Assembly (NCBI GenBank): GCA_902728285.1
Contig: CACVBU010000017.1
Location: 743,295-807,294 of the forward strand
Direction: 5' to 3'
Length of the DNA: 64,000 bases
Source of the DNA: Clytia hemisphaerica
Taxonomy: Eukaryota; Cnidaria; Hydrozoa; Leptothecata; Clytiidae
Shown here in pieces: positions 20,430 through 54,289 of this stretch (position 1 is the first letter of the stretch; the number at the start of each line of letters is the position of its first letter). The notes under the pieces were generated by a model. It was not told the DNA's origin, made no database searches, and was given only the letters and a program-made list of their open reading frames with translations. Position numbers and translations under genes: made by a program.

Positions 20430-21780
20430 GATGTAATTCAAACTTTTCACGGAGTAAAAAAGAATATCAACAAAAAAAGAAAATCAACAAAAAATGAATC
20501 TCAATATCTCGAGAATTAAAAATACTTTGAAGCTGAAATTTTGCAAACAGAACGAGAAAAATAATTCCGAATTGATGGCGAAAAAATTTTGAATTTTGAA
20601 TGAAAACTTTTTGCTCAGCAAGAAATCATTTTTATTCGCAACGGTAAAAAACTGAAGTTAGAAAAAACTGAAGCTCCACATCTTAATAAGTAAAAATGTA
20701 TACAAGCAGCGAAAATAAAATACAGAAATCAATTCAATGTTTAAAAAATATTTCCTATCCTAATAAAACATGAAAAAGTGGATATTTTTCTTACCAAGAC
20801 GGACGAAACGATCGAAAGATTTTTTTGGTAACACCATCACAATCAGGATCTTCATCAGGGCGTTGACCATCATCATTTTTCAATTCTGGATTTGCTCCTT
20901 TGGCCAACAACCATCTGATGACGTCATGTTTGTTGTTCCATGCTGCATTATGCAATGGTGTTCCGTTATCTTTGTCTCTTCCATCGATCAACATTTCGAT
21001 TGTTTGTTGATCAAATTTTTCCAAATAACGAACTGTTCCTGTCCAACCAACCCAATGAAGAATGTTCTGACCACCATTGTTCACGAGTGAAAAATCTTGA
21101 GGATAATTCATCAAGTGAACGAAAACGTCAAAACGATCTTCATAAACAGCCTCCATGAGAAGTGTTGAACCACCAAAACCATCACGCATCGAGTTGACGA
21201 TGTTCGGATTTTGTTGGAAAATTTCTTCGAATTTCGCGAATTTCTCTTTGCGCAAAATTTTCCAAACATCTGAAGAAAAAATGAAGAAATTCAAACTTTT
21301 CACGCAGAAAAAAATAAATTAACAAAAAATGAATCTCGATATCTCAGGAACTAAAAATACTTTGAAGCTGAAACTTTGCAAACAGAGCGAGAAAAATATT
21401 TCTGAATTGATGGCGAAAACTTTTTGCTCAGCAAGAAATCATTTTTTTTGTGACGGTAAAAATATTGAAGTTAGAAAAAAATGAAGATCTGGATCTCAAG
21501 AAGTAAAAAAGATTCAACATTGAAAAATTGCAAACGGGATTGGAAATTTATTTCCAACTTGATGGATTAATTTTTTTTTGGTTTTGATGAAAAATTTTTT
21601 TCCAGAGAAAAATTAATCTTTTCATTGCGAAAAACGAAACTCGATCGCATTCTGTGAAAAAATAAATTCCATAAAAAATTTCTCAGAATGTGAAAAAGTC
21701 GAAAAAGTTTTGAAAATAGAATTTTTTGTCAAAAGTGAATTTTGGCGTGAATCTCAAAATACACAAACAGCGAAAATAGA
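20430..21780. repeat. Direct repeats flanking the ankyrin exon
   Basis: The blocks at about 20430-20710 and 21283-21515 share long runs (ATTCAAACTTTTCACG, TTTGAAGCTGAAA, TTTTTGCTCAGCAAGAAATC). A third, more decayed copy follows at about 21515-21640. The period is about 855 bp. This is consistent with tandem duplication of an intron-exon unit. Confidence 0.7.
20795..21269 (-). CDS. Ankyrin-repeat exon, possible exon 8
   Basis: A 475-nt exon between acceptor ttttttcttcag and donor GTCTTG|gtaagaa, open throughout. It begins VWKILRKEKFAKFEEIF, an N-cap-like helix pair, followed by about three to four ankyrin repeats. The clearest is GTPLHNAAWNNKHDVIRWLL then AKGANPELKNDDG; the others start at STLLMEAVYEDRFDVFVHL and QNILHWVGWTGTVRYLEKF. 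Ankyrin repeats are protein-binding scaffolds. The exon starts with two bases in the same phase that exon 7 leaves open, so it can be joined as residues 1414-1570 of the HEPN-helicase protein. It could equally belong to a separate gene whose other exons are not visible. It ends TG|, and the next candidate acceptor (20419) would supply A and close a TGA stop. Confidence 0.78.
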
Positions 21781-31303: not shown

Positions 31304-31380
31304 CATCAAAATCGAGGGTAGTTCCACCATCATCATCATTTAAGGTCACACTTTTCATGGTTTTGCCGTCCCATTTGTTG
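31304..31380 (-). CDS. Exon 7: small 25-codon exon
   Basis: A 77-nt exon with a good acceptor (gttttcgaaacag) and donor (TTTGATG|gtaagttcc). It carries exactly the one base needed to complete the exon 6 codon and leaves one base. The reading NKWDGKTMKSVTLNDDDGG then TTLDFD is open. The other two frames were not analysed in detail. It is acidic, with no recognised domain. The next exon must start with two bases. The ankyrin exon at 21269 satisfies this (G|AT gives Asp), but lies 10 kb away. Confidence 0.62.
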
Positions 31381-34300
31381 CTGTTTCGAAAACAAGTATT
31401 TACATAAGTATTAATTGAAATATTTACTGAGAAATCAACTCATAAAAATTCACATTGAATCGATGAGATTTGGAATAAAATTTTAGATGCTTACACTCTA
31501 ATTAGACTTATATGTTTTTTATAAGATCACTATAGACTGATTCGAAATCCAGTTAGGCACTATCTTCAAACAAATCTCAAGCAAGCTGCCTGTTCCTAAC
31601 TGACATAATTTTCACCCAAGCAATAAAAACAGACAAAAAAATGTGTAGGTCCAAATGGGAACACTAAAAGCCTTGGAGCTAAGCAAGGTGTTATCAAATC
31701 ATCCTGTACATATTTCGTGAGTGAAAACGACGTCACACGGAATCGGTTTATATATAAGAATACTGTTGAAGAAATACTTCAAAGTATTACAACTCTTAAA
31801 AAAATGTAAAACCTTTTTCGTTTTCAGATATACAAATATTTCATACATGAAATTATTGTATAAAAAGTTATTATATGGAGGCCTCCCCCGGTCACCTTTC
31901 AAATCACGCAATCACACAAAAAAAATCCAAATCACGTTATCACGATTTAAATTTCCATTCTATCACGATCACGTTGATCACGTTAGTTGCCCCGATCACG
32001 CAATCACCCACTTAAAAATCTTAAATCACCAAGGAAATCACGAACTTTAAAAACACCAATCATGTTTTCATAAAAACCGCTGGGGACTCTTTAAACGATC
32101 TTCAATCCTCCCAAATTCAGAAATTCGAAGTGTACTTACACTGTCAGTGAGCTTTGACTCCCGTTAGAAATGAGTTTCCTTAATAAAAAGAATTGGATAA
32201 AATGAACAATGTAAGAATGGTAACATAGTGTTATAGGGTAATGATAACATAGTGTTATATTTGAATATAATATGTTGAAAGTCTGAAGTAATTTGGATTA
32301 AAAGTTATGAGTATTTACAGTTACAGGATTTTAGCCAGGTTTTATGACATATGTTAACAATGAAAGCTTACAACTTGACCTGTCGGATATTTTGATTTAA
32401 GATTTGGTAGACTTGTGCATCATAAGATTTTGCAAAAAGTCGGAAAGTTTTATGTAGAGATTTCTTGGCGTAAATGATGCCAAAGTGGCGTAAACCCTGG
32501 TAAAAAAGGGGTTAAAACCGTTCCGTTCAAAATGTGTGATACGGTTGGTATTAATAAAACAGTACCTAAAAGCTTATACTTACCTGATGCTCTCCTGTAG
32601 TTGTTCATTATCCTGCGTGAGTTTTTTAATCTCTTCAAACCGCTTGCGATCTTCATCAGTAAGTGCTAAAGTTTCAAGATGCTCGATTTCACCGCCATTT
32701 CCTTGCAGTTCAACAGATGTCGTAGCTTCGTCAACTTTTGTTACTTTTACTATCGTCTTGTGGATTAGTTTTTGATTGTCAAATTTTTGAAATGCGTTTT
32801 GTATTGTTGTTTGTGGAGATTGTTTATTCATTTTAGGAAGTACCAGCATATCCAAGTCAGCAATGGTGCGAGTTATCATCTCCACTAAAAGGTTTGGCCC
32901 AATAACATCTTCTTCATCAACTATAATTATTGAATGTGAAACTTCTAAACCACGAAGAGTTCGATAGTCTGAGATTAAAACATTATCGGTATTTTCCAAG
33001 TTTTTGACAAGATCAATTTTTAACTTTTGAAGAGGAACGTCGATGTCTAAATATGGCGCGAATACAACTGGTTTTCTGGTCTTGCTCTTCAGTAAGGCAG
33101 CTTCAGTCATTCTGACCTCTTGAATGTTGTTGCATATTAAAGCAACGCCTTCTTCGTTGCGTGACTCTAAACATTGACGTATGATTATGGAAAGCGTAGT
33201 AATTGCATCGACTGAATCAAAAGTGAAATTTTCATCGAGGTAAAAAAGTCTTGGTAAAATTTCGCTCGGAAAATCATGACCACAATCTGCATCAACGAAT
33301 TTCACTGACGTATTGAGTTTTTTCACTACTTCGTATGACCCATCATCGCCAGTTGTCTTTAAGATTTTCTCTGGATCATGGAGGTAGTTTAAATGCGAAG
33401 ATTTCGGTTCTTCAAAACCAACTAAAATGAAATGGTGAGATATTAAGTTGCCTAAACCAAAAAACCACAGCTTTTTCCTTGACACCGTCATTAATCGAAA
33501 AATCTTGTGTTGCGAGGGAGATAGGCTTGATATTAAAGTACATTGAACTTTAGTGGCAGGTCCCCATTGAAAACCTCTTTGAAGTGAACTTCATTTAATA
33601 TTTGTTTTGAATCCCTTTTTAGAAAATAGACCTGCATGTGTAGCCTATCCTTGTTAGATACACGTTGTTACAAATAAATTCTTAGGTAAAAAAAATCTAA
33701 ATACTTAAGGATCGTTTAAGGATCATTATTAACCTCCATTAACTTCCATTTTTAAAATAAATTAATTTGGAACCTGGATTTAGGTTTTTTGAAGGTTCTT
33801 GAGGTTCGTCATCAATCAATTGAATGTGTGTTGAATCTTTTACCGTCACCACATTTCCAGGGAACATACCACGTTTTCCGTTTACTTCTCCTTCCAACCA
33901 GCCATCATTTTCCTTGCCAACATTAGAAACAATATCGCCGACTTTTAAGTTCAATTCATCGCTCATCATATTTGCAGTATAATCAGAAACCACTTCGAAC
34001 GTAACTAAGAAATAAGATTGAATAGTTTATATTGGGTCAATTAATTTTTCAACTCAATCAAAACTTTGGCATGTTTTACGTTTTCTGTTTGAGTTTTGAA
34101 AATAGTGGTTTTTGGCAAATTGCTCATCTCAATTCTTCATAAAAAACAGACATAATTTTTAATACACCAATTTAGAGAATTTTTCCGAAAAATTTTAAAT
34201 AGCTCAAATCTTTGTGGACATTTAAAAAAAAAGATATCACTTTATCAACGTCTTATAATGTCATTTTTGTAATTGAATTCTTAATTACTCCATGGATTTA

Positions 34301-37300
34301 TTATAGGGTTATAGAGACTATCGATATAGATCAGATGAAACGGTGGAGAGTGAAGTATTTTCTTTCCATTCTTTCACAAAAAAATCCATATACAGGCTTT
34401 TTCCGCAAAGAACAACTGTCATGGCTGCTCGAAGGACTTTGATTTTGAAAAATGATTAATACTCTTTTTCTAAAAAGTTCCCATTCAGCTAGTGTAAAAG
34501 CACCCTTTATTTTTAAAAGTGTTAAGGAACCTGAGTAGTTTTTAACTATGGTCAGAGCCCCATTTTACTTATTTACGCAGAAACGTTTACTCATTCACGT
34601 ATTCACACTTTCTTTACCAATCTAAGGTTTTTTTTAACAATTTGATGACCTTATCTTCACGTGCTCCGCCCTTTAAAGATCCCTTCATAGAGAAACACTT
34701 TTACTGGAAATGCGGAGGCTGTCCTTGGCGTACCTTCCACAAGTGCAAAAGAATTCATGTATACGAACTCAAGTGACCGTCCGGCTTCTCTAAAGATAAG
34801 ATCTACTTCCTACATGACCCTTTCCAATACTTACTATGTTTACGGTAGAATTGCTAGTTTTTCTCTTAAAATATTTTCAAACCTATATCATTGATTTAAA
34901 GAAAGAATTTTTTCTCACCTTGATTTAGGCTTTCTAAAGATTCTTGCGATTGGTCAACAACCAATTCGACGTAGTTAGATGGGAACATTCCTTCTTGATC
35001 ACCTTGCCTTCCCTTCCACCACCCATCATCAATTTCTTCGACCACTTCTACAAAGTCACCGACACTCAACGCAAGCACATTTTCGTAGACCGGTTTGTAG
35101 TCGTATAGAACACGCACTATTTTCTTTTTCAGTTGCTTTGGTTTATTTTTGTTCACATTGAAAGGCGCTCCTTCCGAGTTTGCGCTTGATTGAAAGTTCG
35201 TTGGTTCCTTTGGTGCTACTTCTACAAAGTCGACAGGAAAAAGGCCACGTTTGCCATTTACCTCACCTTCCATCCAGCCATCGAATTTTTCTCGAATACC
35301 AGTAATGATATCACCAACCTTTATGTTTAGTTCATCACACTCCTCTGCTTCATAATCAAAAATCACTTTTGCGATATCTAAGAAATTAAATTGAAATACA
35401 TACAATTCAATACTTAAATGGTAAAATGATCTTATAGCATTCAGACCATTGAGTAGAAAACAAAGATAAAAAATAAGTGTTTTCCTTGTGTATAACCTTC
35501 CTCGATTGGGGGACGTTTTTAGTAAATTTATTGGTTGCCGTTCTTGGTTGTTACAATAAGATCCATAAAGCCTTTTTTGTTTGTAATTGCCCTAAATCAG
35601 AAGGTTGTTCTGCACATACTGCAGCTTGCAGCCCTAGTTATCCTAGTTGGTTGCTTTGACGAGAGTAAACCGTCTAAAATGGTCTTTCTTTCACCATTTC
35701 GTGAATATCTTTTAAAATGCTCTCCTCTGAAAAGGTCTGCGAAGCCATAAAATTCAAAGCAAGATATTCTATATTTATGGTATGATGATTTCAAAGGAAA
35801 ATGAAGGATAAATCACCTTTGTCATTGTCTTCTTCTTCTTTCTTCTTCATCTCCAGTGGAATCGAATACGACGTGCTTTCAATCTCTTTCTCAAGGATCT
35901 CCTTCAAATCATGAAGAGTTCTTGACATCCTCATAGTCTTCGTTAACTTTAGTAATGTCATGCCGGTGCTTTCAATGTCTATCTCTGACGATTTTTCAGT
36001 TCGATCTCTTTGGACGATCTCTCTTTTCTTTTCAACGCTCTGTAAGCTGAAAACCACTGTATTGTCCTTAAAGTCTGCATTCAGACGTCGAGAAAGCTCT
36101 TTAGAGTATTCAGAGACGAACATCTCACAAGGTATCTCGTCAACGAAAAAGTGAACCTTTTTCTCAGGGTGTTTATTCATAATATGTAACAGCACATCTC
36201 CGATATTTCTTTTCGGGGTCGATGAAAGGTTGAAAACGTCAGACACTGGAAACTCAGCACCAGCAAGGGCATCGGTAAGTGACATCGCCTTCAAGTTGAG
36301 GCAATGGTCATCGGGAACCTTTTCTTCCCTGGATATTAACTTGAAGCTCTCTCTTATTTTTCCGTCCAGCGCACTGAACGGATCATAAGAGAGAAATATA
36401 ATAACGTTTTTAGGGTCTTTCTCTTTCAATATGGATCGGATCATTTCTATTAAAAGCACTGTTTTTCCACTTCCAAAACAAGCTTTGATTAACTTATGCT
36501 TTGCAGGGTTTGTTATACACTCAATTTGTTCTCCGTTTAAAAGAATAGTCTTAACTTGGACTGTATCATTCTCACAGACGCGTGGAAGAAATTGAGTTGT
36601 TTGCGCCATCACAGTCATTAATGTGCCACACAACGTGTGAAATAAATCAATATTCGATTGAAAGTCTTTCGAACGGATTGTATTGAAATCAGATCTTATA
36701 GTTTTGAAAAGATTATCGATCCATTGTTCGGAGTTATTTTCCTGGAGCTCTTGTTTGGTGATGAACAATGTTTCACTTTCTTTTGGAATGTTCAAGTGCA
36801 TCAAATGTTCCAGATCTTTCATTTCTTTATCAGGGAAAACAAGTGTTCCTGTAATACTCAGATATTCTGCGCAAAACAATTCAAAACTTGCGAAATAGAT
36901 TGTTTTTAAAATGTTATTAAGAGCTTTAAGACTTTCTGTCAGTTTCGATATATCATCAATTACAACGAAAACGCAGACACAGCTTTTGTCAGGGTGAACC
37001 AGTAATACAGAGTTTTTGTAGTAATCTTTGTTGACGAGATCAACTATTTTATCAAACTGTTGAGAACCTACACCTAAGAGGTTAAGGTGATCTTCTGGGT
37101 TATACCCGGATAAGATGAGGTGATTTCCATGGCGCTGCGAGAGTACCCCGTTTAGTAACTCGATAAAGAGAGATGTGCTAGTCTTTTGTAGATAATACGT
37201 TGGTGGGAATGTCTTAACTGATCGATGGTCAATGTAATATTTTGTTGCCCTTTCGTAAAAACTTTCAATAGACTTTGCAACTGAAGGTCCTGTGGTAATC

Positions 37301-40300
37301 GCTTTGCATTTATCGGTTGGTTTGACCCCTTTGTCAAGTTCAAATTGGTGAACATTGTTCTCCATTCCATCGTTATGTGCAAACAAAAGTGTTCGACCTT
37401 CTTTTCCAATTTGACATCGAGAAAATACACCATCTGTAAAAAGATAAATATTTTATTTTGAATGAGGATGATATGCAGTTGAAGCTCTGACATCTGAATA
37501 TATTTGGATATAGGGGATGCTAATCGTGCACAAAATTCCTATCCAAGATTTACCCAAACTTCGGGATAACCTGTTTCAATTTTCTTAACATGGTTTAGAA
37601 ATCCAATAGTTGCATTAGCCTCTAACCATTCAAATTTCAATAGAAATTTAATTGAATTTAAAGATCTCTATATAAAACATACTAATCAAGTTTCTAAAAC
37701 TCGAAAACACAGACGGAGATAAATTTCGGACGGCAATTTTACACACGGTATGCAACCTCTGTATTAAAATATCAGAATTTTATCGAATGAGACTATTTTC
37801 TCTTCTGGTAAAAGTTGAAAATGTAAAACGCCGCTTTCGAATGAAATCCTGACTTAATGCCGCAAGAAATGTGAATACGAAATCAATCTCAATTTGACAT
37901 TCTTTATGGTTCATTATAACAGCCACAAGTAGTCACAATGTCATCCCATAGCTTGAAATTTTCCATTCCCGCTCCCCAAAACTAAACTCTTTTCCCCATT
38001 CCCATCAAAGATAAAAATCATAATTGATAAATTTCCAGGCACGTATGAATTCTCAAAGGTTTGTTTTAAAACTAAAATGGGAAGATGAAAAGGGTTAGAA
38101 TTCAAGCTTTGATATTGCTATTCCGAAGTCTTCAAATATTTAGATTCCCATTTAGATATGTAAGGGGGATTTCAATGTTTACAGTGAAACAGTATCGGCC
38201 TTTTTTCTGTCCGTTATTTCGTTAGTTTAAGAAAAAACATTTGACACCGGTTTGAAATGTTACCGGTTACGGTAAATTGCCTAAAAATTCTTCGGTATTT
38301 CGGTACTTACTCGTAAAACTTCGATATTTCGGTAACTTTAAAATCTTTCCGAACAGTTTTCTTCATAAAGTGACTTCCAAAAATCGCCTGCGGCGCTAAA
38401 CTTTCTTAAATTTTAGAAAACTACACCCAGTTTCGACAAAGTATGTATACACCACTTTAGCTCCCAAACAGTAGCATGGTGACATGGGATCAGAAACAGC
38501 TCCACCTCTAGTCAGTCTAGTGGCAATTTTTTTGTGCGGTTATAGTCCATCTACTATCCTTTATACTAGCCATAACTTTCATTAAGGTGCCACCGCAGCA
38601 AAACGAACACATAGAGTTGAATTTGCGTTCAAAAGGAATGATCTTAGCCCTACAGTAATTTTTGTTAAAAGTGACCTCTCACCTGAGACAAAATTCTTTC
38701 AAATGCTGACAAATGTGTCAAGGGAGTGATTTACAGTCTATTTAGAGTGACATCCGTGCCTTGTCTTACACGTTTTTTATAAGAACAATTTCATAAGAAT
38801 ACGAGGCTGAAATTTGGCCAAAACCTAAGAACAATTTAAGAAGAATCTGAACCTCAGATTTCAGAAGTTACTGAGAAGTACATGTTTCCATTTTAATTAA
38901 TATTAAAATAAAATCGCCAAAAAGGTGACTGATTGGTTATCTGTCGTTTCTGAGTGTAACATAAATACTTCAACGAAGGAAGTATCCGAGAGTTTGGATG
39001 AAATTGAGTTAGACGAGGATGCGGAGATTGTGAGTTTCGATGTTGTCTCGTTATACACCAACGTGCCCGTAGATGACGCCATCCAAGTTTGTTCGGATCT
39101 ATTGTATGATGGTGATTACCCAAAACCTCCAGTAGATAAACAAACTTTTATTGAACTTTTAACGATCTGTAGTAAGGACGTAATAATGTTGACGGATGAT
39201 GGCTTCTACCGCCAAACCGACGGCCTCGCTATGGGAAGCCCTCCAGCTCCAATGTTAGCAAATGGCTGGATGAGCACCTTCGAAACAAAAATCAGTGAAG
39301 GCGCTAAGATCTACAATCGTTATCTTACGCGATATTGCAAAATCTAAAATTGATGAAACCTTAACAAATTTGAATGGTTTAAACAATAACCTAAAGTTCA
39401 CGATAGAGAGAGAAAACGAGAATTCTATACCTTTTCTTGACATGAGAATAATCCGTAAAGGTAAAAAGCTAGTCTCTACTTGGTACACAAAGCCAACTGA
39501 TACGGGTTTAATTATGAACTTTTATGCTCTTGCGCCATTACAGTACAAACGGTCAACTTTAATAGGGATGGTATATAGAATTCACAGAGCTTGTAGTACA
39601 TCTGAAAATCTCGATGAAAGTCTCAATCGTGCGAGAAAAATCTTAAAACGGAACCAGTATCCAGAGAAATTTGTTGAATCAGTCATTACAGTTACCTTAG
39701 CAAAAATCAATAGTGTCTCGAATGAACCTGAGGAAAATGAGGTTGAGGATCAGGAAGAAAAGAAAAAGTTCTTCATTGAATACAGAGGAAAGATTTCAGA
39801 ACAGTTCCAGAAATCACTCTATAGATTGAAGGCACCGTGTAAGATAATTTTTAAAATCAGAAAATTAAAAACAGTGCTACCATCTTTGAAGTGTCCGATC
39901 GAAAAATCCTTTAGGAGTTGGATCGTTTATAAAATTAAATGTTCACGATGTCAGTCGTGCTATGTTGGCTTTACTTGTCGACATTTGACCACACGAATAA
40001 AGGAACATTGTTCACCAAGGGCACCTGTCTCGATTCACATGAATGCTTGCGCACGGGAACTGTCTATCGACGATGTCGAGATAATTGCATCCAGAGGCGT
40101 ATTTAGGGTAGGTCAAGTAGGTCAAGTGACATAGTTCCGAGAAATTGAAAAACATGAAAAATTGTGAAACAGGCAATCTTATTCCTCTTAGTGATACACA
40201 GTCCCCTTCAGATGCCATGTCTTGTATCAACTTTATCAATTTTATGCGTGCGGCAGTTAAAACTAACTAAACTAGACTGAAATTTATCTCCGCAGTATTA

Positions 40301-43300
40301 CCTCCCTAATGTTTTGCGAGTGAACCTTTCGCTATTTAGAGACTTTTATTTTGATAATCCGAAAACCTATCTAATACCGCCCGACCCATATCGCCCCGCT
40401 TGAGTGACTTAGCAACACCCTTTTTGACCTCTTTCGCCCTAGCAAATCGGGATCATATTATTACCGAGCTCAACTTCTCTAAAAATTCACGTGTAATGAC
40501 CTTGAGTGACTGCTTATATATCTGGCCGCCTTTCATTTAGAGATAATATGAAGCCGAGAGACATAGCTAGAAATGGCTAAAACGACCTAGCAAAATTTCT
40601 GAAAAAATCGGGGTAATAGCTATGAGGCTACGTACAGCTTCTCTGTCGAGTTTATTAAAAAACAATACTCAATTCACATTTCCTAGCTTATCTCTTTCAC
40701 AGTTTTTATTGAGAGAAGCTCAGTTTCCAGAGCTGAAATTTGCTGAATCGACCCAGTTAACTTTTGAATTTGATCTGAAATTTTGTGAAAGTCCAAGTAA
40801 CTTTCACGTCTTAACTCTGATTTTATAGCTTTAATTCTTATGGATCGATTGCTAAGAATTGATCGTCAGGGTATTAAGCATCAGCACCAGTTGTCACTGC
40901 TTTAAGTTGAACTAATAATGTTTATTTTTTAACAAAAATGAAGCATTTTTCAAAGTCTTTTAAAACTTTGTTTTTTACCTGCTTTTTGGTTGTTGTTGTG
41001 AGCGGAGATGAATATATTAGAATGATTTGACACCATTTAATTACCTCCTATTCAATTCAAAACATAAAAAATAATTTTAGGGATATAAAGGCCTATAAAC
41101 TCAACTCCCCGGGGGGTACTAGGATTGATGGGTGTCGGGTATGTGCGTGCCAGACCTCTGGACCCTTACCCTTAGAGAGACTGAATTTTGGTGAAAAGGT
41201 GACCCTTAGAGAGACTCAGTGTAGAAAAACCCAACCCTTAGAGAGACTTTTTCACAAAAAATTTCTATAATGGGCCAAAGAAATTCGATTTTTAAAAGAA
41301 TTTCTCCAATTTTCGAAAAATTTCTCTAATTTTTGAAAAATGTTCTCACTTTTTTGACTTTTCACTTTTCTTTGACCCGAGTTTGTGAAAAAACCGACCC
41401 TTAGAGAGACTGATTTTGACTTTTGTTGTTTTGGTAACCCTTAGAGAGACTTTGAGAGGGTGAAAAACCCTACCCTTAAGGCACGCACATACCCAGCACC
41501 CATTTTTGCCTAAGTACCCACCTACCACCCACCCCCCCCCCGGGACTCAACTATAACTCAACTATATTTCTTGTTTTTGGGAAACGAACATTGCTCCACA
41601 TCAGTATCTATTTTTTACCACAAGCGGTTAATTAGCGTAAAAAGGTAGTTAAAACGTGAGACAGGGGTATACGTTGAGTAAAAAAATTCCCATAATTTGT
41701 AACATAGTACGAGTGGCGATACAAACTACGTCCGTCTGAACAAAAGTGGAATCTTGCATAGAATAACTCGGATAGCGATTAAACGAAAAATGATAAACGC
41801 CTTTCCAAGAACCAGACTTGAACCACTTGGCTTCAAAATTTTGACCTACTTGGCAAAATTCCTAAATACGCCACTGGCATCATCCACCATCTCAGAAGAA
41901 TATCTAATGACTCTTGAGGCTTTGTTAATCAATCAACTAAAACCAAAATTAAACACTAGGGACGAATACAAAACTCATGCGTTCACATTAAAATTTTAAT
42001 TGTTTATAATTGTTTTATTCATCTCTTGAGACTTTTCATTTTATGTCTCAACAGATACGGTTTTCTAGGGCAAAAAATGTTTTCTTAGGTTATTCATTTG
42101 CAATTTGTTTTAGATGAGGAAGGAGTGTTTGTAGATATGTTGATAAAAAAATTTATTTTTTAAACGGATTTTTAATTCTTGTTTTTATTGATTTTAGACC
42201 TGAGGATGATCGTAAGATCGAAATATATATAGTCACAAAAATAAAATGTCACCATTGTTGGTTCATTTTGAATATCTTCTTAATTAATATTGACATTTAA
42301 GGCTAAAAACTCATATAAATTTAAGAGCAGCCCAGCCAGAATCATATGACTTACTGGTTTTTCCTATAAAAAGCGTATGTATCTGAAGATACTGCTCTTC
42401 ATATGTCATTTTACTTATGTACACGTTTAGCATCATAACTGTTCGAATACCTCCAATAGAGTAATATTTTTAACCTATGAAGAGCGCTTAATAACTACTT
42501 GTGGTATAAAAAGGGAATTTCTCCCAGAAAAGGGAATTTCCTTAGATTCATTTAACTCTCAAGGGATAGGAAAAAGACAAACTGACATTTCACATTGAGT
42601 AATCAGATCAAAATAACTCCTGTAAAGTCTTTTTGATAATGATAAAACAATAGAGAGACCGAAGATAAGAATGCTACCGTTAAGCGGAACTAAAATACTG
42701 AAAAACGCGCGCAAAATTATGAGATGTTTGCCCAACTTCCTTATGCGTGAAGCTACGAATGCCATCCTCAGAAGCTTTAGGCTTCCTCCGGTGGCAAAAA
42801 TGACTTTTTACAAAAAAAGGGCTACCTTCTCTCAAACACTTAAAAGTGTATTTTTAATTTCGCTTAGCGAAAGTATTACGATAGCTTTTCGCGGCGGCGG
42901 CGGCGGCGGTGTCCTCGGAAAAAAAATTAGAAAACAAAAGTGCTTGATACGGTGGACGAACTCACTAAATTTAATTTACAAATTACACGCTCGTATAACC
43001 ACGGACGATTTTCGCGGGTTTTCTTTGGATTACGTCATATATCTTTATATCTTAGCTCCACAGTTTGATTTTTTCTTTATTTTCTTATAAGCATATACTT
43101 TATAAGATTCAAACCAATAACTCTTGATAGACAGTGATATACCTTTCGGTTTTTAGTTCATACAAAGTAAATAAGGGATGACGCAAAATATGAGCATATT
43201 TATTTTTCTTATAAGCATTTACTTTCTAAGAATCAAATCAATAACTTTTGATAGACGATGATATACCTTTCGGTAATTATCTCTTACAAAGTAAACAAGC

Positions 43301-46300
43301 AATGGCACACAAATATGAGCATTTTTATTTTTCTTATAAGCATTTACTTTATAAGAATCAAATCAATAACTTTTGATAGACGGTGATATTACCTTCGTTT
43401 ATTAGTTATTAAAAATTAAACAACAGTTGTTCTTAAATTGGTCTCTTTTTTTTAGCGATTTTAAGCCTCGTTGTTCTTGTAAAATTGTTTCATCAAGGCT
43501 CGATGTAAAGTAGATTTCAAATTGGTTTCAATCTCTACTTCTTGTTTTTCCTATGTAGTTTAAATTCTAGGCGAAATTTTCGACTTCAAGTCGTATTGTT
43601 TTCTTTATTAGACTAAACTTTGATCCAAAGGCAAATGGACGGAATAAACCAATCCGGAGTCCCTTTCCCTAATCTCACATCACAAATCACACTTTTAGTC
43701 ACAATAGCGGACCTGTAAATTACATTAAAGGAGGCAAAAAAAAGATAGCAAAATCGTTGAAAACCTAATCTTGGAGCCTGAAATAGGAAAAGAATTGGCG
43801 GTACGTTATAATATAAAGAAAATTTGGCGGATTTGGAAAAGGAATTCTCCGAAAAAAAACCGGAATTCTCAATATATTTCGAACAAGATTGTAAAGCAAA
43901 ATCAATTACACATTACATTCATTTTGTAAGAACCAATAAAATCTTGTGAGGCCCTACTTATTTTTCTAGCACTTCGAGCCTCAAATTGTTCTTATGTCTA
44001 AGATATGTGCATGCTTTTTATCCAATTTTTACTATTTTGACCCTGAAAATTATTCTCATTTTTTGGAGATTTTGAGCCTCATTGTTCTTATGAAATTGTT
44101 CTTATAAAAGAAAAAGAGTCCACCTGTTTTATTAATTTTCAAATTCTTACTGGAATAGCGCTGCAAATCTGTAAATGCTGAAGTCAACTATACAAATTTC
44201 GTTAAAAAGTATCAAATCAGAAACTATTTTGACCTTGTTTGATTTTTTAAGATCAATCAGGTACAATCTTGGTAGAATTAAATTGAGATTTTTCAAAATT
44301 TATAGTTCGGGGCGATCGAGAATTACTATTTTAGTACCACTTTCTTTCACTTGTTAATTCGATTTTGGAGTAGTTCGGTGGCTTCTAGATTTCATTCCAA
44401 ACCATATTGGAAGAATTTTGAGCTTTTAAATCCTGAGATCCTAAAGTCCTTGATTTAAATCTCATGTTAAAACTCAGAGTTAAAACTCTACTTTTTAACT
44501 GTAGTTTAACGCGCTTAAAAATCATTCGTGGTGTTTAAAATATCGCATGCAAATCCCCTTTGTCTCAAGAATTTCGTCCAAGATTGTAGAATCGCATTAA
44601 TAACCTGATAAAATGATATCGAGATGAAACTCGGCAGAGAGGCATAATGTTCAAGAAGGATTGCCACAACCTCAAATCCATTTATACAAACATGTTCCTT
44701 CATTCTAAAATTTATCAGGGACCCTAACGATAACTGACTTACAAATGAAAAAACTAATGGAGAAACTAAGGAGATTTATCTTGACGAGTAAAGATATGAA
44801 AATGGGTGTCATCATCCTGGTATATGACCTCTAAAGTCCTAAAATAGTTTAGACAAGTTAAATTAAAATGCAGACCAGCCCATTGTGATAACATCTCTAA
44901 TAATTTTTTATTGTCGATTAAGCTCGACTCTATCGTCAGATATTAATTAAACAAATCAAAATGGTCAGTACTTTCCACAGTTTTTTAGACGTCTCTGATT
45001 CTAACCTTGGTAATACTTGGACGTCAGCAATACATTTATTTTTAAAAAGTTACTTCATTGCTTTTTAATCAAATCCATTAGGAGTAATTAAGAATTTAAT
45101 TGCAAAAATGACGCTATGAACTTTAAAAAGACGTTAATAATATGTTGCATTATCTTATTTTATAAAAAGTGCTGAGTTTTAATGGGTAATTAACCTTTTT
45201 GATTCGAAATATTTTCAAACTGTCTGCAAAGAATTGAGCTGTTTTAAATTTTTCGGAAAATTTTTCTTAATTAATGCATCAAAAGTTATGGCTGTTTTTC
45301 TATGAAAAATTGTGATGAAAAATTGGTCAAAAAGCACTATTTTCAAGATTTTGAGACAAATAAGCTTTTAGAAAAATTTTCCGTAAAATTTAATTTAGTT
45401 CGGTAAAAGATACAGCATCTACTGCAAAACAATTTCAAAATGTTGTTTCTTCGCCGAAAATAAGCTCTTTAAAGTTGAAATACTCTTCTTCCCGAAAGTC
45501 TTCATTTTCTTCTTCATCAATTTTTTTTCATTGTGAATCTTAAATTTTCAGACAGATCGATTTTTCCTCCGATTACGCGAGCCTATTTCCCTGTTAAAGC
45601 CTCTAATGCGACACTTAAAGAGGTAAAACCCATGTTTTGTTGGCCAAAATAGGTAATAATGCTACAGTAATGCAAGGCAGAAATTTACACAGTACTTTCG
45701 AAAGTGAATTTTAGTGTTTTTTTGAAATTATTTAAACTCTATTCTTTTCCGAATTTCTTAAGGACTTTTAATGTTGAAACCTTTGATTAATGAAAAATAA
45801 GCTAGCCAAATTCTACTATGAACATTTACCTTGAACGCGACGATGACTAATAGCACTCTTTATTTAGAATGTTGTTTATTGACCAATTTCCTGGTCGTTT
45901 CCTCTTGTTTCCCTTCGTTTCCCTTCGTGTTTCCCAGTAGTTTCTGGACGTTTCACATTTTAGTAAGTACATAATAATATCGATGCCAATCTTACATATA
46001 GTTTGTTATTAAACTCCGGTTAAGGAGTTTCTTAAAATCAGTATTTTTCATTTTTAATTGTGCGTAAATCTGATCAATCACCATATTCGGGTTCGATTTC
46101 CCGACCTTTCCGGTTTGATTTCACGATTTAGTTTACATTTGCGCTCGCACTTACTAGGATATACTGCTTTAAATTTTATGTTAGATATATTAAGAAAGGC
46201 TGACCTATGACAATTACCGGAGTTTGCAACCGTCATTACGGCTGTTTTATTGGTTATGAAATAGTGACCAAAGTTATGATAAATTTTAATGTCTTCCTTT

Positions 46301-49300
46301 TGTTCAGCACAGGTTTTTGCAAACAGAATCATTTCCCTTAAGGGCTCTGACCATAGTGAATTTTGATATTTGTCATGTACAAAATATAATCTTCTGCCTG
46401 ATGTAGCTAACAAAACTTTGACATGTTATACATTCTCTGTTAGGCCAACTATCCTTGAGTCTGAAAATTTATGAATGGCAAAGAAAATATTTGATGAAGG
46501 AGAAAATGAAGACTTTCGCGACGAAGAGTATTTCAACTTTGAAGAGCTTAGTTTGGTCGAAGAAGAAATATTTTGAAAATACTTTTGTGGTAGATTGTGT
46601 ATCCTTTACCGAACTAAAAACTTAATTTCGGAAAATTTTTCTAAAAGCTTATTCGTCTCAAAATCTTGAAAAAGTGGTTTTTGACCTATTTTTCATTCCA
46701 ATTGTTCATAGATAAACAGCTATTAATTTTAATGCATCAATTTAGAAAATTTTTCGGAAAGGTTTATAGCAGTTCAATTCTTTGCAGATAGTTTGAAAAA
46801 ATTTCGAAACAAAAAGGTTAATTACCCATTAAAACTCAGCAATTTTTATAAAAGAGGGTGATGCAACATTTTATTAACGTTATTTTAAAGTTCATAACGT
46901 CATTTCTGTAATTAAATTCTTAATTACTTTGATGGGATTTGATCAAAAAGCAATTAATAAATGCAATTCTTTGTTAAAAGTGCAAAGGATCCTGAAACAT
47001 AACTTTTATGCTCAAATACCAAAATTAAGGGTGCTTTTTCACTACGCTAGATGGATAAGTGGTTCTCATCAACGGTCCTTTTCATAAATTTCTAAGGGTT
47101 GTAAAAAATATACAATGAAGATTCGTGCTTAACATCAGATTTTGATTGCTTCATATCAGCATTCCAGATTTAACGTCGAAAATTGGTCATTAAACCTTTT
47201 GTTCTCCAAGAGAGGGCTAGACCTCTCTTGGCTTAATGACCAATTAAGCGAAAAAGGCAGCATAAATAAATTGGTTGCCATAAAAGTAGCAGAATGTGCA
47301 GCGGGATTCTTTTGTTAAAAATTGGTCATATGGGAAAAGTGTTTTTTTAAAGAGTTGAAGAGCAAACTTTCATCTGTATTGATTTGATACAAAAGACGAG
47401 GAATCTTGTCACAGAAAAAGTTCATTAGAAGGCTGTAATTCTAAATCCCTTTAATGCGAGTTGATGATTTTTAATAAAATTTTCTTCAAATTCAAAGGGT
47501 TGTAAACTATTTTGGGAGTCAGTAATGCTTTCCTATCAATTTTCTTTGTTACAGCATAGTATAAGAAAGCCGCGGCTGGAATGATAACATCTGAATTTCT
47601 GTTATTCTATCTCTGTCGTATTTGATGACTATTTGTTGATCAAGAAATCAGTAATGTAGCATCTTTAATGGTAGATTTTATTGGTTTGTCGTTAATACTT
47701 ACTTCTCAGTGCGTTTTAGACATTAATGATATGCTCTTGATAATACACTTGCATTATAAAATCATTGTAACGGAAAAATCAACACTAAGAAATTGAAACA
47801 AGCACAAAAATGGCTGGGCTGAAAGAACTCAAAAATTAATGAGGTGCCTCGAAATTCCTTCGCAATATTTCAGTGAAATATTTTTAGAAATCAATGAAAA
47901 AGTACATCAAGAGAACACTGTGAAAATTTTAAGCCAGCGCCTTTAAGATTTATCATTTAAACTGACAGGAAAGTTGTCATCTTGAATATAGTTCTTATAA
48001 TTTCAATTTTAGCGAAAAACTATGTTTCCACAAAATACCCCTGAAATATGTCCAAAATTAGTTCAAGCGTTCTATTGGGTACAGATTCAAAGATATCTAG
48101 CAACGAAAAAACTTTTTGTGAAGGAAAATAAGAGAAAAATTTCAAAAACTATCTACCAATAACAAACTGATCATCTTGATGTTCTTATAAAGCTCGGAGA
48201 CAGAGATGGAACAGCAATTAACTGAAAGACAATGCGGTACATATTCTAGCCGCGGCTTTCTTATACTATGGTTACAGCTAATCGATTTTCGCCAGACAAT
48301 CTTAGTGAAAAACCACCCTAATTTTTTGACTATGGTCAGAGCCCTTAATTCCAAGCCAGGGAAGAAATTCTTTCGAGTCACTTCAGACAGGAAATACAAA
48401 AGAAATAGGCTGCTGACATTCATTAACGGAATCGTACACGATGGCCTTTTTCATAATATTATTGCCTTCTCACAGGAATTTGTTCTTTTACCACACCTTC
48501 CTTCAAAAAGACAAAATAAGTATCAAAAAATTCTACACATTTTCCTTCAAGAATACACAATCGACAGTTTTCTTTTAATTGTCTGCATTATTACGTCATT
48601 TCCTCCATAATTTTTCAAAAATCTAAAATATTGGGTTTCAGCTGAACTAATATCTTACTAACCTATAACCACTTTTATCCATGACAACTACTATTTTCGA
48701 TGTGCACGACCCATAAACCTCAAAGATTTCGGTTACATGCAGGATAACCACTTCATGATACCGGTTTTTATGATGGTTTTTTTTTAATCTATAGTTTTGT
48801 AGAGCTCTGCGATTCGGACGAACTTGAAGAACGATGTTAAGAAACTCCAAAATTTGGCATCGAGTAGGGCAAATTGAAAGGTGGTTATGAGCAATATTTT
48901 GATCAAATTATTTTTGTCTTTACTGTCTCAAGTGATTCAAAGAATTTCATAAGTCTCTGTAATGGAATGGAAGAGGATGTTAAAAAACATTGACGTACCT
49001 TTGAGATGTATTATCTCTTTGATTTCCTGCATACACTTTTCATTATCCATGTATTGAATGAAAAATTCATATTCGTAAGGAGACTCCAACTCCAAGTGAA
49101 CATGCAACCAAATATATCCTTTGGCTTGTTCTGTGACATGTCTGAAGATTTCTTGAAAAGTCCTTTTCTTCCCTTTCCTCCAACATTGGATAGTGAATAT
49201 AGTATGAATGTTATCATCCTTTATTTTGAAGAGAACATCGCTGCGTGTCATCTTCTGCACCCTGTTTTAAAATGACAAAAATATATCTATTTGTTTCAAT

Positions 49301-50746
49301 CCTTCAAAAAAGTCTCAGTCATCAGATTCCGGGGTATCGGTTCTAGCCTTGCCGACTGACGGAAGTGTGCCGCTGTAATTCGAAAAATGTTTCTAAAAAC
49401 TTTCTTACTCAGAAAAAACCCATCTCCCCCAATCAGGGACTCATGGAGTTGAAAAAAAGTACCCTGACCAGTGGTACATCCCCGTACCCAATTTTGCCCA
49501 TGTACCCCAAGGTATCAGAAAGCGAGAATTTATTTGTAGCTGTTAATCCATATCCATATCGGTGATTTATTTTCTCAATATTTTTTTACGTTTAGATGAC
49601 TAGTGCCAAAGGGAAGGAAAAACAATATTTCCACATTCAAAGAATATAAAAAGTAATTATTGACGTAGCTGAATTTATACTCAAGTCCTCTGAGGATTCT
49701 AAATTGAGGGGGATAACCGTTTTCCCGGAAAATTTTTTGCTGAATCCTGGAATCCCGAAAGTTGAGAAAAATGATAACACCGTAACACCAGTTTGTAGAG
49801 GCATAATGACATAATACCCGGCATAATGACAGAAAATAAGGCTAAATACCGTCACCGTCTGATTTTAACATACGGTTTTCCCGTCTCTTCTTCGTCAAAT
49901 CCTGTAATACCGTAATAAAATAGGGTCAATCCCGTCACACCGTAAAAGTACAAATCCCCCCTAAAATACATAGTCAGCCGAAAGAAATACTTACGAAATT
50001 ATTTTTTCTTCTTCGCAATAATCCTCCTCCTCGGCTCTTTGATTTTGGAGTTCTTTTACTTTTTTATCAACTTCTTTCATCACTGTTAATAACATATCTT
50101 TGTTTTGCTTGCTCATTTCATCTTGTACAGTTTTCTTTAGGTCTTCAACCAAGTCTGTCATATGATTTTTTCCATCCTTAATATCAACAACAACTTTGTC
50201 GTGCAGCAAACTATCGAAATCTGGTAAACAGTTGTAATTGATTCCAACCAAAGCTGCTCTTATTTCTGCCCATATTCCTTTAAAGAAGTTCTGATCTTTA
50301 AATTCTTTCAATGCACCATGAAGAATTTTATTTCGAAGTTGTCGTAAAGCAATGATGAATGCTGCAACGGAAAAATCGCCTTGTTTCGGTTCTTTGATTC
50401 TCCAACCACCTTTGGGCGGTGTAATATTCACAAAATTGATGATGACAAAGACGATCAAGGTAATGTCAAATGAGAGCGAAGAGGTTTTTCCGCTGGCTGG
50501 AAGCAAAAGGTCAAATTGATCTTTTTTCAAAGCTCCACTATTTTTCAGTCCGTTCAATTTCTTTCTATATTTATCGAAGAATTGATATAACTGCTGCTCG
50601 TTGCGGGGAAGACCCTGATATAAAGGGTCGTTCGTGTCGTTGTGCATGACACGGAGAAGTCCATTCTTCCCGTGAATGTTGAGAGCCAAAATGCACTTTG
50701 CCCATTCTTTGTTGTCGGTTATTGTTTTGGAAAAATCGCTACCCAT
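31304..50746 (-). CDS. HEPN / SF1 helicase / triple-SH3 gene (7 joined exons)
   Basis: Gene model built from exons 50746-49995, 49261-48999, 37433-35817, 35377-34919, 34004-33774, 33421-32584 and 31380-31304. Every junction is GT..AG and the split codons agree (phases 2,1,1,1,1,2). The joined frame has no stop and gives about 1,412 residues, ending in phase 1 with further exon(s) required. Domain order is HEPN (about 40-170), coiled coil (195-245), unrecognised region (250-600), RecA1 (about 640-877), SH3 x3 (879-1085), RecA2 (1109-1386) and an acidic tail. From family knowledge, HEPN domains with R-x4-H are often RNases, SF1 helicases translocate on nucleic acid, and SH3 domains bind proline-rich ligands. 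A cytoplasmic RNA-sensing or defence role is inference only. Introns 2 and 4 are loaded with transposons. No proven promoter or poly(A) site was seen. The joined model has not been checked against transcripts. Confidence 0.8.
31878..32089. mobile_element. GAGGC-ended element with ATCACG array
   Basis: GAGGCCTCCCCCGGTCACC at the left and CCGCTGGGGACTC at the right, with repeated ATCACGCA or ATCACGTT motifs inside. It lies in intron 6 of the helicase gene. Confidence 0.65.
32584..33421 (-). CDS. Exon 6: C-terminal half of SF1 helicase (RecA2)
   Basis: Encodes residues 1109-1386 after acceptor cattttag; the donor is ATCAG|gtaagtat. A strand EEGVALICNN (about 1198-1206) fits the helicase IVa region. 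Motif V appears as ISDYRTLRGLEVSHSIIIVD (1257-1276). Motif VI appears as EMITRTIADLDMLV (1288-1301), with the Arg expected to contact ATP. This is the UvrD/Pif1-like C-terminal RecA pattern, and together with exon 3 it completes one SF1 core. A Lys-rich stretch and a short helical segment (KRFEEIKKLTQDNEQLQE) follow. It ends in phase 2; AG plus C from exon 7 makes Ser1387. It lies 352 bp downstream of exon 5. Confidence 0.88.
33774..34004 (-). CDS. Exon 5: third SH3 domain
   Basis: Encodes residues 1032-1107 with one SH3 domain: VVSDYTA in the ALYDY position, SDELNLKVGDIV, NDGWLEGE, GKRGMFPGNVV. The ALYDY motif is weaker than in exon 4, with Ser-Asp in place of Phe/Tyr-Asp, but the Trp and FP positions are intact. 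SH3-1 and SH3-3 share the WxEGEVNGKRGxFP stretch, which points to internal duplication. The acceptor is ttatttcttag. The donor CCAG|gttcca is weak, but it lies at the position homologous to the exon 4 donor (LNQ versus LNP followed by a split codon). Phase 1 on both sides makes it a second symmetric cassette. Confidence 0.9.
34005..34568 (+). repeat. GGGCTCTG-family repeat in intron 4
   Basis: Shares long stretches with 46600-46990 (AGAGAATTTTTCCGAAAAATTTTAA, GTAATTGAATTCTTAATTAC in part) and ends ACTATGGTCAGAGCCCC at 34565. Lies between SH3 exons 4 and 5. Confidence 0.65.
34919..35377 (-). CDS. Exon 4: two SH3 domains
   Basis: Encodes residues 879-1030 and carries two eukaryotic SH3 domains. 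SH3-1 (about 879-931) shows the ALYDY-type VIFDYEA, the acidic RT-loop ECDEL, VGDII, DGWMEGE and GLFPVDFVEV. SH3-2 (about 963-1016) shows VLYDYKP, LSVGDFVEV, DGWWKG and GMFPSNYVEL. The ligand-binding Trp and Pro positions are kept in both. A Ser/Asn/Lys linker of about 30 residues separates them. The acceptor is ttaatttcttag and the donor AATCAAG|gtgaga, with phase 1 at both ends, so the exon can be inserted or lost without breaking the frame. SH3-1 is closest in feel to the first SH3 of CIN85/CD2AP (a WLEGE..NG.RGMFP pattern). That comparison is from memory and not computed. Confidence 0.95.
35817..37433 (-). CDS. Exon 3: N-terminal half of SF1 helicase (RecA1)
   Basis: A long open exon (1,617 nt) encoding residues 340-877. 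The acceptor is ctttttacag and the donor AAAG|gtgatt, with phase 1 at both ends. Residues about 340-620 are not recognised. A hydrophobic block (SVLLVHP, VCVFVVIDD) followed by FELFCAEYLSITGTLVF could be a degenerate nuclease-like or oligomerisation domain. The helicase core begins near 640: motif I GSGKT at 659-663, motif Ia-like VIIFLSYDPFSAL, motif II VHFFVDEIP with the acidic pair at 770-771, motif III-like VVFSLQS near 798-804, and motif IV-like LTKTMRMS at 835-842. This is the SF1 (UvrD/Pif1-like) order. The exon closes with an acidic linker (EMKKKEEEDNDK), just where the SH3 cassette begins. The second RecA domain is encoded beyond the SH3 exons. Confidence 0.9.
38768..38892. mobile_element. 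Left part of an ACACGTTTTT MITE next to the Penelope element
   Basis: ACGTTTTTTATAAGAACAATT begins a copy of the 3671/24569 family. The right part is missing on this side; sequence after 42291 (TTTAAGGCTAAAAACTCAT) resembles the distal half. The Penelope element may have inserted into it. Confidence 0.4.
38925..39344 (+). pseudogene. Penelope-like reverse transcriptase fragment, broken at the YxDD site
   Basis: Starts mid-domain with VVSECNINTSTKEVSES. It contains the catalytic-Asp motif A region (IVSFDVVSLYTNVP) and motif B (GLAMGSPPAPMLAN). Immediately where motif C (Y-x-D-D) should follow IYNRY, the frame runs into LTRYCKI and a stop at 39347. The downstream protein (RDIAKSKIDETLTNLNG) continues in a different frame. 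Comparison with Penelope RTs shows that about ten bases covering the two catalytic Asp codons are missing. N-terminal palm and finger parts are absent. Confidence 0.85.
39313..40091 (+). pseudogene. Penelope-like RT C-terminus plus GIY-YIG endonuclease, interrupted
   Basis: Open frame beginning just after the motif C lesion. It includes the RT region IPFLDMRIIRKGKKLVSTWY then TKPTDTG, a linker rich in Glu (EENEVEDQEEKKK), and the GIY-YIG core near 39913-40010 with a zinc-like Cys pair (CSRCQSC). Those cysteines are typical of Penelope endonucleases. Reading is cut at codon IIAS (40081-40091) by an inverted-repeat element and continues in frame-equivalent sequence at 41882. The C-terminus ends with TAA at 41997-41999. 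Confidence 0.85.
40092..41876. mobile_element. Inverted-repeat DNA element inside the Penelope endonuclease
   Basis: Left end CAGAGGCGTATTTAGG and right end CCTAAATACGCCACTG are inverted repeats. The flanking GCATC (40087-40091 and 41877-41881) is a 5-bp target duplication. Removing the element plus one GCATC restores an uninterrupted endonuclease reading, which confirms the boundaries. The CAGNGGCGTA termini are hAT-like, and a 5-bp duplication fits the hAT5 subgroup. No transposase ORF is visible, so the element is non-autonomous. It contains a further nested element at 41107-41544. Confidence 0.8.
41107..41544. mobile_element. G/C-ended MITE with 8-bp TSD (copy 3)
   Basis: Begins CCCCGGGGGG and ends CCCCCCGGG. 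The perfect 8-bp duplication ACTCAACT lies at 41099-41106 and 41545-41552. Subterminal inverted parts are GGTGTCGGGTATGTGCGTGCC and its counterpart. The interior holds about six copies of CCCTTAGAGAGACT in one orientation. It has no coding capacity. Confidence 0.85.
42200..42234 (+). ncRNA. Hammerhead-like core near the Penelope 3' end
   Basis: CTGAGGA (fits CUGANGA) at 42200-42206, then a GATC-GTAA-GATC hairpin, then GAAA at 42220-42223 and GTC at 42232-42234. Hammerhead ribozymes are known in the terminal repeats of Penelope-like elements. Stem I pairing is poor and there is an extra U before stem II, so activity is doubtful. Confidence 0.35.
42292..43083. other. No gene recognised; short (GGC)n
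   Basis: Contains six GCG/GGC units at 42891-42909. The open frame around it has no recognised motif. Confidence 0.4.
43084..43410. repeat. Tandem repeat, unit 123-126 bp, 2.7 copies
   Basis: Anchor CTTATAAGCAT at 43084, 43210 and 43333; each unit has AACTTTTGATAGACGGTGAT and AAATATGAGCAT. A further unit lies at 53048-53145. Confidence 0.85.
43411..45059. other. No gene recognised; MITE fragments
   Basis: GTTCTTATGAAATTGTTCTTATAA and GCCTCNTTGTTCTT words at 43430-43500 and 43980-44115 belong to the ACACGTTTTT/TTAGAACA MITE family. Confidence 0.4.
45060..46990. repeat. Long inverted repeat, arms about 480 bp
   Basis: 45060-45550 and 46470-46990 are near-complementary, for example AAGCTTTTAGAAAAATTTTCC against GGAAAATTTTTCTAAAAGCTT. 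The spacer is about 900 bp. Both arms belong to the GGGCTCTG family and both carry a conserved acidic ORF (minus 45435-45525; plus 46475-46576). Confidence 0.8.
46342..48344 (+). mobile_element. TTAA-flanked GGGCTCTGACC element candidate
   Basis: TTAA then GGGCTCTGACCATAGT at 46338-46357, and ACTATGGTCAGAGCCC then TTAA at 48329-48348. A 33-codon ORF sits at 46475-46576 near the left end. No transposase is visible in the remaining 1.8 kb, which is AT-rich and otherwise unrecognised. Confidence 0.55.
48999..49261 (-). CDS. Exon 2: unrecognised 87-residue region
   Basis: A short internal exon bounded by a clean acceptor (ttttaaaacag) and donor (CAAAG|gtacgtca). It encodes residues 252-338, reading from VQKMTRSDV to EIIHLK. 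It contributes one base at its 5' edge and leaves one base at its 3' edge, matching exon 1 and exon 3 exactly. The peptide has alternating hydrophobic strands (IFTIQCW, YIWLHVHLELE, YEFFIQYM) and a C-terminal helix, so it looks like a small folded alpha/beta domain. I do not recognise the family. Other reading frames here give only shadow ORFs. Intron 1 upstream (49994-49262) is 733 bp. Intron 2 downstream is 11.6 kb and full of mobile elements. Confidence 0.75.
49331..49512. mobile_element. CCCTTA-type MITE, decayed
   Basis: CCGGGGTATCGG..GACTGACGGAAGTGTGCCGC at the left and GGTACATCCCCGTACCCAATT then TTGCC at the right recall the 1486 and 52861 elements. In intron 1. Confidence 0.5.
49681..49975. 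mobile_element. GGGGG-ended element with ACCGT motif array
   Basis: Left GAGGGGGATAACCGTTTTCCC; right CACCGTAAAAGTACAAATCCC then CCC. Repeated TACCGTNA, CCCGTC and GGCATAATGACA words lie inside. It is located in intron 1 (49262-49994). Confidence 0.55.
49995..50746 (-). CDS. Exon 1: DZIP3-like HEPN domain
   Basis: Opens at an ATG in a good context (aagATGG) and encodes residues 1-250. The conserved run PLYQGLP (41-47), LLPASGKT (81-88), FDITL (93-97), a PPKGGW segment (110-115) and RNKILH (138-143) match my knowledge of the DZIP3-like HEPN family, common in cnidarians and other invertebrates. R138 and H143 complete the R-x4-H motif used by HEPN RNases, so the domain is probably catalytic. 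Residues about 195-245 are a charged Lys/Glu-rich stretch likely to be a coiled coil. The exon ends ATTTC|gtaagtat, leaving two bases. These join the single G at the head of exon 2 to make Ser251. The ATG is preceded by an AT-rich stretch without an obvious TATA box. Confidence 0.87.
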
Positions 50747-53145: not shown

Positions 53146-53951
53146 TTTATATATGGGTGTTTTCGGCGGTGACGTCAGACTGGTATACGAGAGAAGTTTT
53201 TTTGCTATTTCCTTGGACAGGACATTCTGCTCGGCAGTTGCATGGTTTATCCCGTTCTCTGGTTGCAGTAAGTTTTTTGTTGTGTCCATTAATTATTCGT
53301 CCAATATTTGGGGTACAGCTATATATAACTTACTTTCACATTGTGCTCCGATTGAATAATTTGTTTATAATTTATTAACCAGATAATGGTTCAATCCTAC
53401 ATTCAACAAAAATGTTTCCTCAAACATCGCAAAACAGTTTTTACAACTGATTGATACACATTTTTCAAAAAGCAAGAAACTTCACAAATTATTCAATCAG
53501 AACAATGTGAAAGTAAGTCCGAATTAGTGAGCACAAAACAACATCGGCAAAAAAAATACAGTAATAGTAAAACATTATCGTCTTACGTTTGGCAATTGAA
53601 AGAAAATAAACCACCTGCGCTGGAAGGTCAGCCCAATAAGCTTAAAACGAATAGAAGGAAGTACAATCAAGAAACCTAATTCGATGTTAAAGCCAAAAAG
53701 GTTGAAAAGCTCATTTTGGTTGAACTTCAGACAAAAAAATCTTTTTATCTTAAAATAAAAGTAGACGAAAATTTTCTGTTTTCCACCCTGAAAATTGTCC
53801 AAAATAATAAAAAATCGACCCTGTCAGATACACATCTTGAAAATTAGTAAATTTGAGAACCTGTCAGATATCTTTAGAGCCTTAAAAAGGAACCCTGACA
53901 AGAAGAATAGTCAATTGATTCAGATTGATTTAAATGGCGTGTTGAACCTAG

Positions 53952-54289
53952 GGGCCCCTAACGGTTTGCGTGAATGCGTGAATGGACATTTTCTGTTGCG
54001 TGAAAGCGTGAATGCGTGAAAATTGAAAAAAATTTCGTGAATGCGTGAACTGAAAAACTTGCGTGAACGTGAAAATCCACTTTTTAACTGCGTGAATGTG
54101 TGAATCTGGGTTATTTTGAGCGTGAATTTTTCCCTTTTTTCCACTGATTGTGTGCAGTGTTCCCGATTTTCCAATGTTTTTCCGATTTTCCCGAAAATTT
54201 TCCGATTTTCTGAAAAATTGGGTTATTGCGTGAAGCTCCAGGAAAATTTGCGTGAATGCGTGAATCTTCCGGGTCCACTTGGGGGCCTC
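53952..54289. mobile_element. GGGGCC-ended element with GCGTGAAT array
   Basis: Inverse orientation of the 13217 family. The ends are GGGGCCCCTAACGG and CCACTTGGGGGCCTC, with ACCTAG on both flanks (53946-53951 and 54290-54295), a possible 6-bp duplication. GCGTGAAT recurs many times inside. Confidence 0.7.

Follow-up and report, generated by a model that had tools for sequence, protein, structure and literature searches.

What kind of protein is encoded by a gene of the hydrozoan Clytia hemisphaerica in which a HEPN domain, a helicase and three SH3 domains follow one another on a single chain? The gene lies on the minus strand of a 64,000-nucleotide stretch of contig CACVBU010000017.1 (positions 743,295 to 807,294), which is referred to here as the window. 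Judged from its sequence, the product appears to be an animal defence protein of a kind not described before. We regard it as about an even chance (roughly 0.5) that the gene belongs to a family of hydrozoan proteins with a predicted role in defence inside the cell, in which a HEPN RNase is gated by a helicase.

Gene structure and domain order

The gene model comprises nine exons and encodes 1584 amino acids with no internal stop. The first-pass annotation had joined seven exons between positions 50746 and 31304 without a stop and with matching phases. The phases do match and the internal borders of exons 1-8 are all GT..AG, but eight exons lie in this interval and a ninth lies outside it, at 21269-20791. 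The UniProt entry A0A7M5V7G2 from Clytia hemisphaerica (1577 aa; P0001 in our protein set) shows a 100% match to the gene model over the searched region and is identical to it, residue for residue, over the first 1394 residues. Since this public record agrees with the model, the union of the HEPN, helicase and SH3 parts in one gene, as first proposed, is not a product of chance.

Exon 1 (49995..50746), which has a GT donor and is identical to P0001, encodes the start methionine, the N-terminus MGSDFSK and the HEPN domain. An in-frame stop is located directly upstream of its ATG. Residues 51-183 (50198..50596) match the HEPN_DZIP3 profile (PF18738) at 67.1 bits (cut-off 27), identifying the domain as a DZIP3/hRUL138-like HEPN. 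The R-x4-H motif announced by the first-pass annotation was found in the alignment as RNKILH (R138 to H143, 50318..50335). It has the R-x4-6-H form of HEPN RNases, and RNase activity is predicted on this basis. Exon 2 (48999..49261) encodes a region of unknown fold with 41-44% identity in the relatives P0002-P0004. Exon 3 (35817..37433), placed by its splice borders, the alignment and the identity to P0001, encodes a linker-like domain, the first RecA lobe (RecA1) and motif IV. The alpha/beta linker-like region covers approximately residues 395-635 (36544..37266; limits approximate, alignment from P0006). It is followed by RecA1 of a superfamily 1 (SF1) helicase and the first beta-alpha unit of RecA2 (35845..36543), which were assigned by residue conservation and by the match of a relative's structural model to UvrD.

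The SH3 domains are encoded by exon 4 (34919..35377, 459 nt; SH3-1 and SH3-2) and exon 5 (33774..34004, 231 nt; SH3-3), both of which are symmetric (phase 1-1). Exon 6 (32584..33421) encodes the remaining part of RecA2 with motif V (R1264) and motif VI (TRT, R1292). The short exons 7 (32140..32178) and 8 (31304..31380) are defined by splice borders and phase. The last exon, exon 9 (20791..21269), encodes the C-terminal ankyrin repeats and the stop codon and was located by tblastn of P0001-P0004, its acceptor and its phase. All elements of the order HEPN, unknown region, RecA1, three SH3 domains and RecA2 are thus present on the minus strand, with the correction that the SH3 domains are situated inside RecA2 and not between the lobes. 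The ankyrin exon, the Schlafen-like linker and helicase, the relatives without SH3 and the MGxxxS start described below were all missing from the earlier account.

The 3′ part of the gene is not as clear. P0001 and the window model diverge after residue 1394. P0001 and P0002 share the same C-terminal part (100%, last four alignment blocks), and the last part of P0001 is about 79% identical to the ankyrin exon of the window. An ending like that of P0002 and unlike exon 9 suggests alternative 3′ ankyrin cassettes or read-through to a 3′ end outside the window, or else an annotation error in P0001.

Intron 2 carries a broken retroelement (38907-40134, plus strand), in which reverse transcriptase and GIY-YIG fragments with subthreshold Pfam matches lie in different frames and which, from its motifs, we take to be Penelope-like. 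The same intron contains an inverted repeat (45054-45342 and 46669-46957; 289 nt, 86% complementary, spacing 1326 nt), possibly a small DNA transposon. Elsewhere in the window, a tandem array of about ten 145-nt copies with 97% matches occupies 14645-16127, and open reading frames at 13118-13612 (plus strand) and 53948-54370 (minus strand) have in common a HAFTQIF-like repeated peptide, probably a dispersed repeat.

Helicase core and SH3 insertion

The window protein contains the residues Q641, K662 of Walker A, D770-E771, Q803, R840 of motif IV, R1264 of motif V and R1292 of motif VI. Counted over the family alignment A4, the residues of the Q-motif and of motifs I, II, III, IV, V and VI are all present; the SF1 motif names are those that we presume to apply to these conserved positions. 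No Pfam helicase model scored above its cut-off on the window protein (ResIII 21.7 versus 22.5, UvrD 18.7 versus 23), a cut-off that is a test of convenience and does not define the SF1 superfamily. The helicase is therefore assigned from its SF1 motifs and from the way in which a relative is predicted to fold. The model of this relative has two predicted RecA lobes. Its best Foldseek match is SLFN11, its best full-lobe structural match is UvrD, and the counterpart of the linker-like region falls within the stretch aligned to SLFN11 and SLFN14. Judged from this model, the linker and SF1 helicase fold resembles group III Schlafens and UvrD.

The three SH3 domains jointly score 124 bits in Pfam against a cut-off of 22.9 (scored on P0001, identical in the window). 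They occupy approximately residues 880-1083, past motif IV and ahead of motif V, where the 2B domain of such helicases presumably sits. The best sequence matches in the PDB are SH3KBP1 (CIN85) for SH3-1 and SH3KBP1 and CD2AP for SH3-3, which makes the SH3 domains of these adaptors the nearest PDB sequences to two of the three domains. In contrast, SH3-2 is nearest to GRB2, and the protein has no further part in common with the adaptors. The place of the insertion, inside RecA2 and flanked by motifs IV and V, is the one expected of RecD/Pif1-type helicases. In RecD, RecD2, Dda and Pif1 an SH3 fold likewise serves as the 2B domain, with a role in nuclease activation in RecBCD (PMC5030088), whereas the window protein has three canonical eukaryotic SH3 domains encoded by shuffled exons, in one copy.

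Relatives and known systems

At least 32 family members (P0001-P0004 and P0006-P0033) were found in the protein collection, for which the best approximately 8000 scored candidates per search were considered. P0005, an unrelated SH3 protein, was dropped. Clytia has at least two subfamilies. Ankyrin repeats were detected in 7 and HEPN_DZIP3 in 5 of the 32 members listed (E <=0.01), and SH3 domains in one, P0001, the representative of a 12-sequence cluster. The SH3 triplet is thus not a family-defining feature. Many of the entries are fragments, so all three counts are lower bounds: the 21 members from ENA contigs (P0006-P0026; 465-913 aa) and P0033, from ENA and lgn, do not include the HEPN region.

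All seven members that have the HEPN region keep the R-x4-H motif (the other 25 lack the region), including P0027 and P0030, though these have no Pfam HEPN match. Six of the seven (P0001-P0004, P0027 and P0030) start with MGxxxS, one of them with MGCTLSK. This start, which we take to be an N-myristoylation consensus, suggests N-myristoylation and perhaps also palmitoylation. P0027, P0029 and P0030 carry TCONS names in EukProt. If these are RNA-seq transcript names, as we assume, the HEPN-helicase junction is seen in the transcripts of relatives.

In the FastTree phylogeny, which covers 26 of the 32 members (six partial sequences were left out) and was rooted on P0033 by choice, P0001 groups with P0002-P0004. 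Compared with P0002-P0004 in 50-column blocks, P0001 is 21-64% identical up to about residue 470 and 72-100% from there to about residue 1365, except for the SH3 stretch and the next block, where identity drops to 26-36%. The shift near residue 470 is sharp and separates a divergent HEPN half from a nearly identical, homogenised helicase core, a pattern that suggests recombination or diversifying selection.

The layout corresponds to no named family that our literature search returned, nor did this search return a HEPN domain with a Schlafen-like helicase in animals. A scan of the genome contig collection with two peptide patterns only gave no relative of the helicase core. The group III Schlafens SLFN11, SLFN5 and SLFN14 share the order of RNase, alpha/beta linker and SF1 helicase on a single chain (PMC9482658), but the window protein has HEPN at the N-terminus in place of the Schlafen core nuclease and additionally has ankyrin and SH3 domains. 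No SLFN core is among the listed Pfam matches of the window protein or P0001, and a SWAVDL-like linker motif (pattern SW[AS]) occurs in none of the 32 members. The PF09848 match is below cut-off and, where seen, limited to the surroundings of Walker A. With neither SLFN core nor SWAVDL-like motif, the protein is, by sequence, not a Schlafen.

Animals are known to have expanded sets of DZIP3-type HEPN proteins that carry immune partners (PMC3710099, PMC9646362, PMC8260672). The DZIP3/hRUL138-like proteins resemble the window protein in the HEPN family, R-x4-H, association with ankyrin and lineage expansion (PMC3710099, PMC9646362), but the fusion partners that PMC3710099 lists for this family are TPR, Zn-ribbon, RING, ankyrin, CARD, NACHT, DEATH and LRR, with no helicase among them. 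The same source describes nematode HEPN-LAF-1/Vasa-like proteins, an animal precedent for HEPN joined to a helicase lobe. These belong to another HEPN family without the arginine and have an inactive N-terminal SF2-type ATPase lobe. Bacterial fusions of HEPN to SF1, SF2 or SNF2 helicases involve, in contrast, other HEPN families and restriction-type systems (PMC3710099). Cnidarian and brachiopod TRADD-N fusions with HEPN, DDX60, Mov10 or RLR-like partners are likewise lineage-specific, immune-type combinations with RNases and RNA helicases (PMC8195603), but they are built around TRADD-N, which was not seen in the Pfam tables of the window protein, and contain other helicases.

Proposed function and competing explanations

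We infer a function in RNA sensing and antiviral defence. A lipid-modified N-terminal glycine would tether the protein to a membrane, where foreign or aberrant nucleic acid, either RNA or DNA, would be bound by the helicase lobes. Closure or dimerisation powered by ATP would bring HEPN domains together, the HEPN dimer would then cut RNA, and the ankyrin repeats would select partners or substrates. SLFN11 is an antiviral RNase and single-stranded DNA sensor with an autoinhibited helicase domain (PMC9482658, PMC11615386); by analogy, a Schlafen-like chassis can work in both ways. In this copy, the three-SH3 cassette may have been gained through exon shuffling into a flexible RecA2 loop, the 2B slot. 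It would probably add an input triggered by proline-rich protein ligands or couple the sensor to membrane adaptor complexes.

Several observations weigh against a helicase-gated RNase. The modelled relative is about 30% identical to P0001 and is not the window protein itself. Its Foldseek list also includes many KaiC entries (from E 4.5e-6), Upf1, LGP2 and RIG-I, and the TM-scores displayed are all low (0.14-0.41). The SLFN entries of the VIA comparison have whole-chain root-mean-square deviations of 8-17 Å, so the firm match concerns the helicase lobes and not the linker. By sequence, RecA1 comes closer to Pfam ATPase_2 (up to 31.9 bits, cut-off 33.2) than to any of the helicase models. According to PMC9482658, SLFN11 in its full-length form neither binds nor hydrolyses ATP, and intact motifs are thus no proof of a working motor. 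P0029 has no MGxxxS start, and the divergence after residue 1394 leaves it uncertain where the transcript really ends on its 3′ side. The explanations considered here overlap, and our confidence in them is not required to sum to one.

The rival that survives best, although we think it unlikely, is a nucleic-acid-binding pseudo-enzyme or scaffold, with a helicase that does not turn over, a HEPN domain that only binds RNA, and SH3 and ankyrin domains that recruit partners. Both of the latter are interaction domains, and SLFN11 and SLFN5 keep their Walker motifs with no ATPase activity detected (PMC9482658, PMC8789055). Against this reading, divergent members are almost invariant in R-x4-H, in both Walker motifs (A and B) and in the arginine of motif VI. 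It is improbable that the NTPase works as an NLR-type STAND/AAA switch, which would make the protein a HEPN-NLR-like receptor and not a helicase. PF01637 (ATPase_2) matches 19 of the 32 members at E <=0.01 (best 1.5e-7) and is given for 7 of them in the precomputed Pfam column of the collection; nSTAND_NTPase5 matches 22 at E <=10 (best 0.0017), and cnidarians commonly have HEPN-NACHT proteins (PMC8260672). In the Pfam tables examined, none of the NACHT and STAND families exceeds its cut-off, and ATPase_2 reaches 31.9 bits against 33.2.

We find it very doubtful that the protein is a helicase-nuclease of DNA replication or repair without a part in immunity. Such a role would fit the UvrD match and the viral library search, in which giant-virus DNA 3'-5' helicases rank first. 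Against it stand the DZIP3-type HEPN, an RNase-type domain tied to immune domains in animals (PMC3710099), the multiple copies of the family and the divergent N-terminal half of P0001, which are unlike a housekeeping gene, and a putative lipid-anchor start that would be ill-suited to a nuclear role. Equally hard to credit is the view that the gene model with SH3 domains is chimeric, or the copy a decaying one, and that no protein is made from it: the broken retroelement in the 11.6 kb intron 2, the differing ends of P0001 and the window model and the single SH3-bearing member speak for it, but 1584 stop-free codons, GT..AG internal borders, symmetric SH3 exons, strong SH3 scores and the identical public record speak against it.

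A bolder form of the helicase-gated RNase reading is tentative at best. The protein would be a Schlafen-like defence machine of an early-branching animal, membrane-tethered, with HEPN in place of the Schlafen core and, in one copy, CIN85/CD2AP-like SH3 domains in the 2B slot, whose RNase would need both a nucleic acid and a protein signal. If true, such firing on a dual signal would give the SH3 gate of RecBCD a counterpart in eukaryotes.

The finding hints that animals have a family of nuclease-helicases distinct from the RLR, NLR and Schlafen groups named so far, and the jellyfish that carries it is genetically tractable. It would be a sign that the linker-helicase chassis of the Schlafens is older than their nuclease or has been reused more widely. 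Between them, the copies with and without SH3 domains provide a natural experiment on how a helicase changes when its 2B slot takes up SH3 domains.
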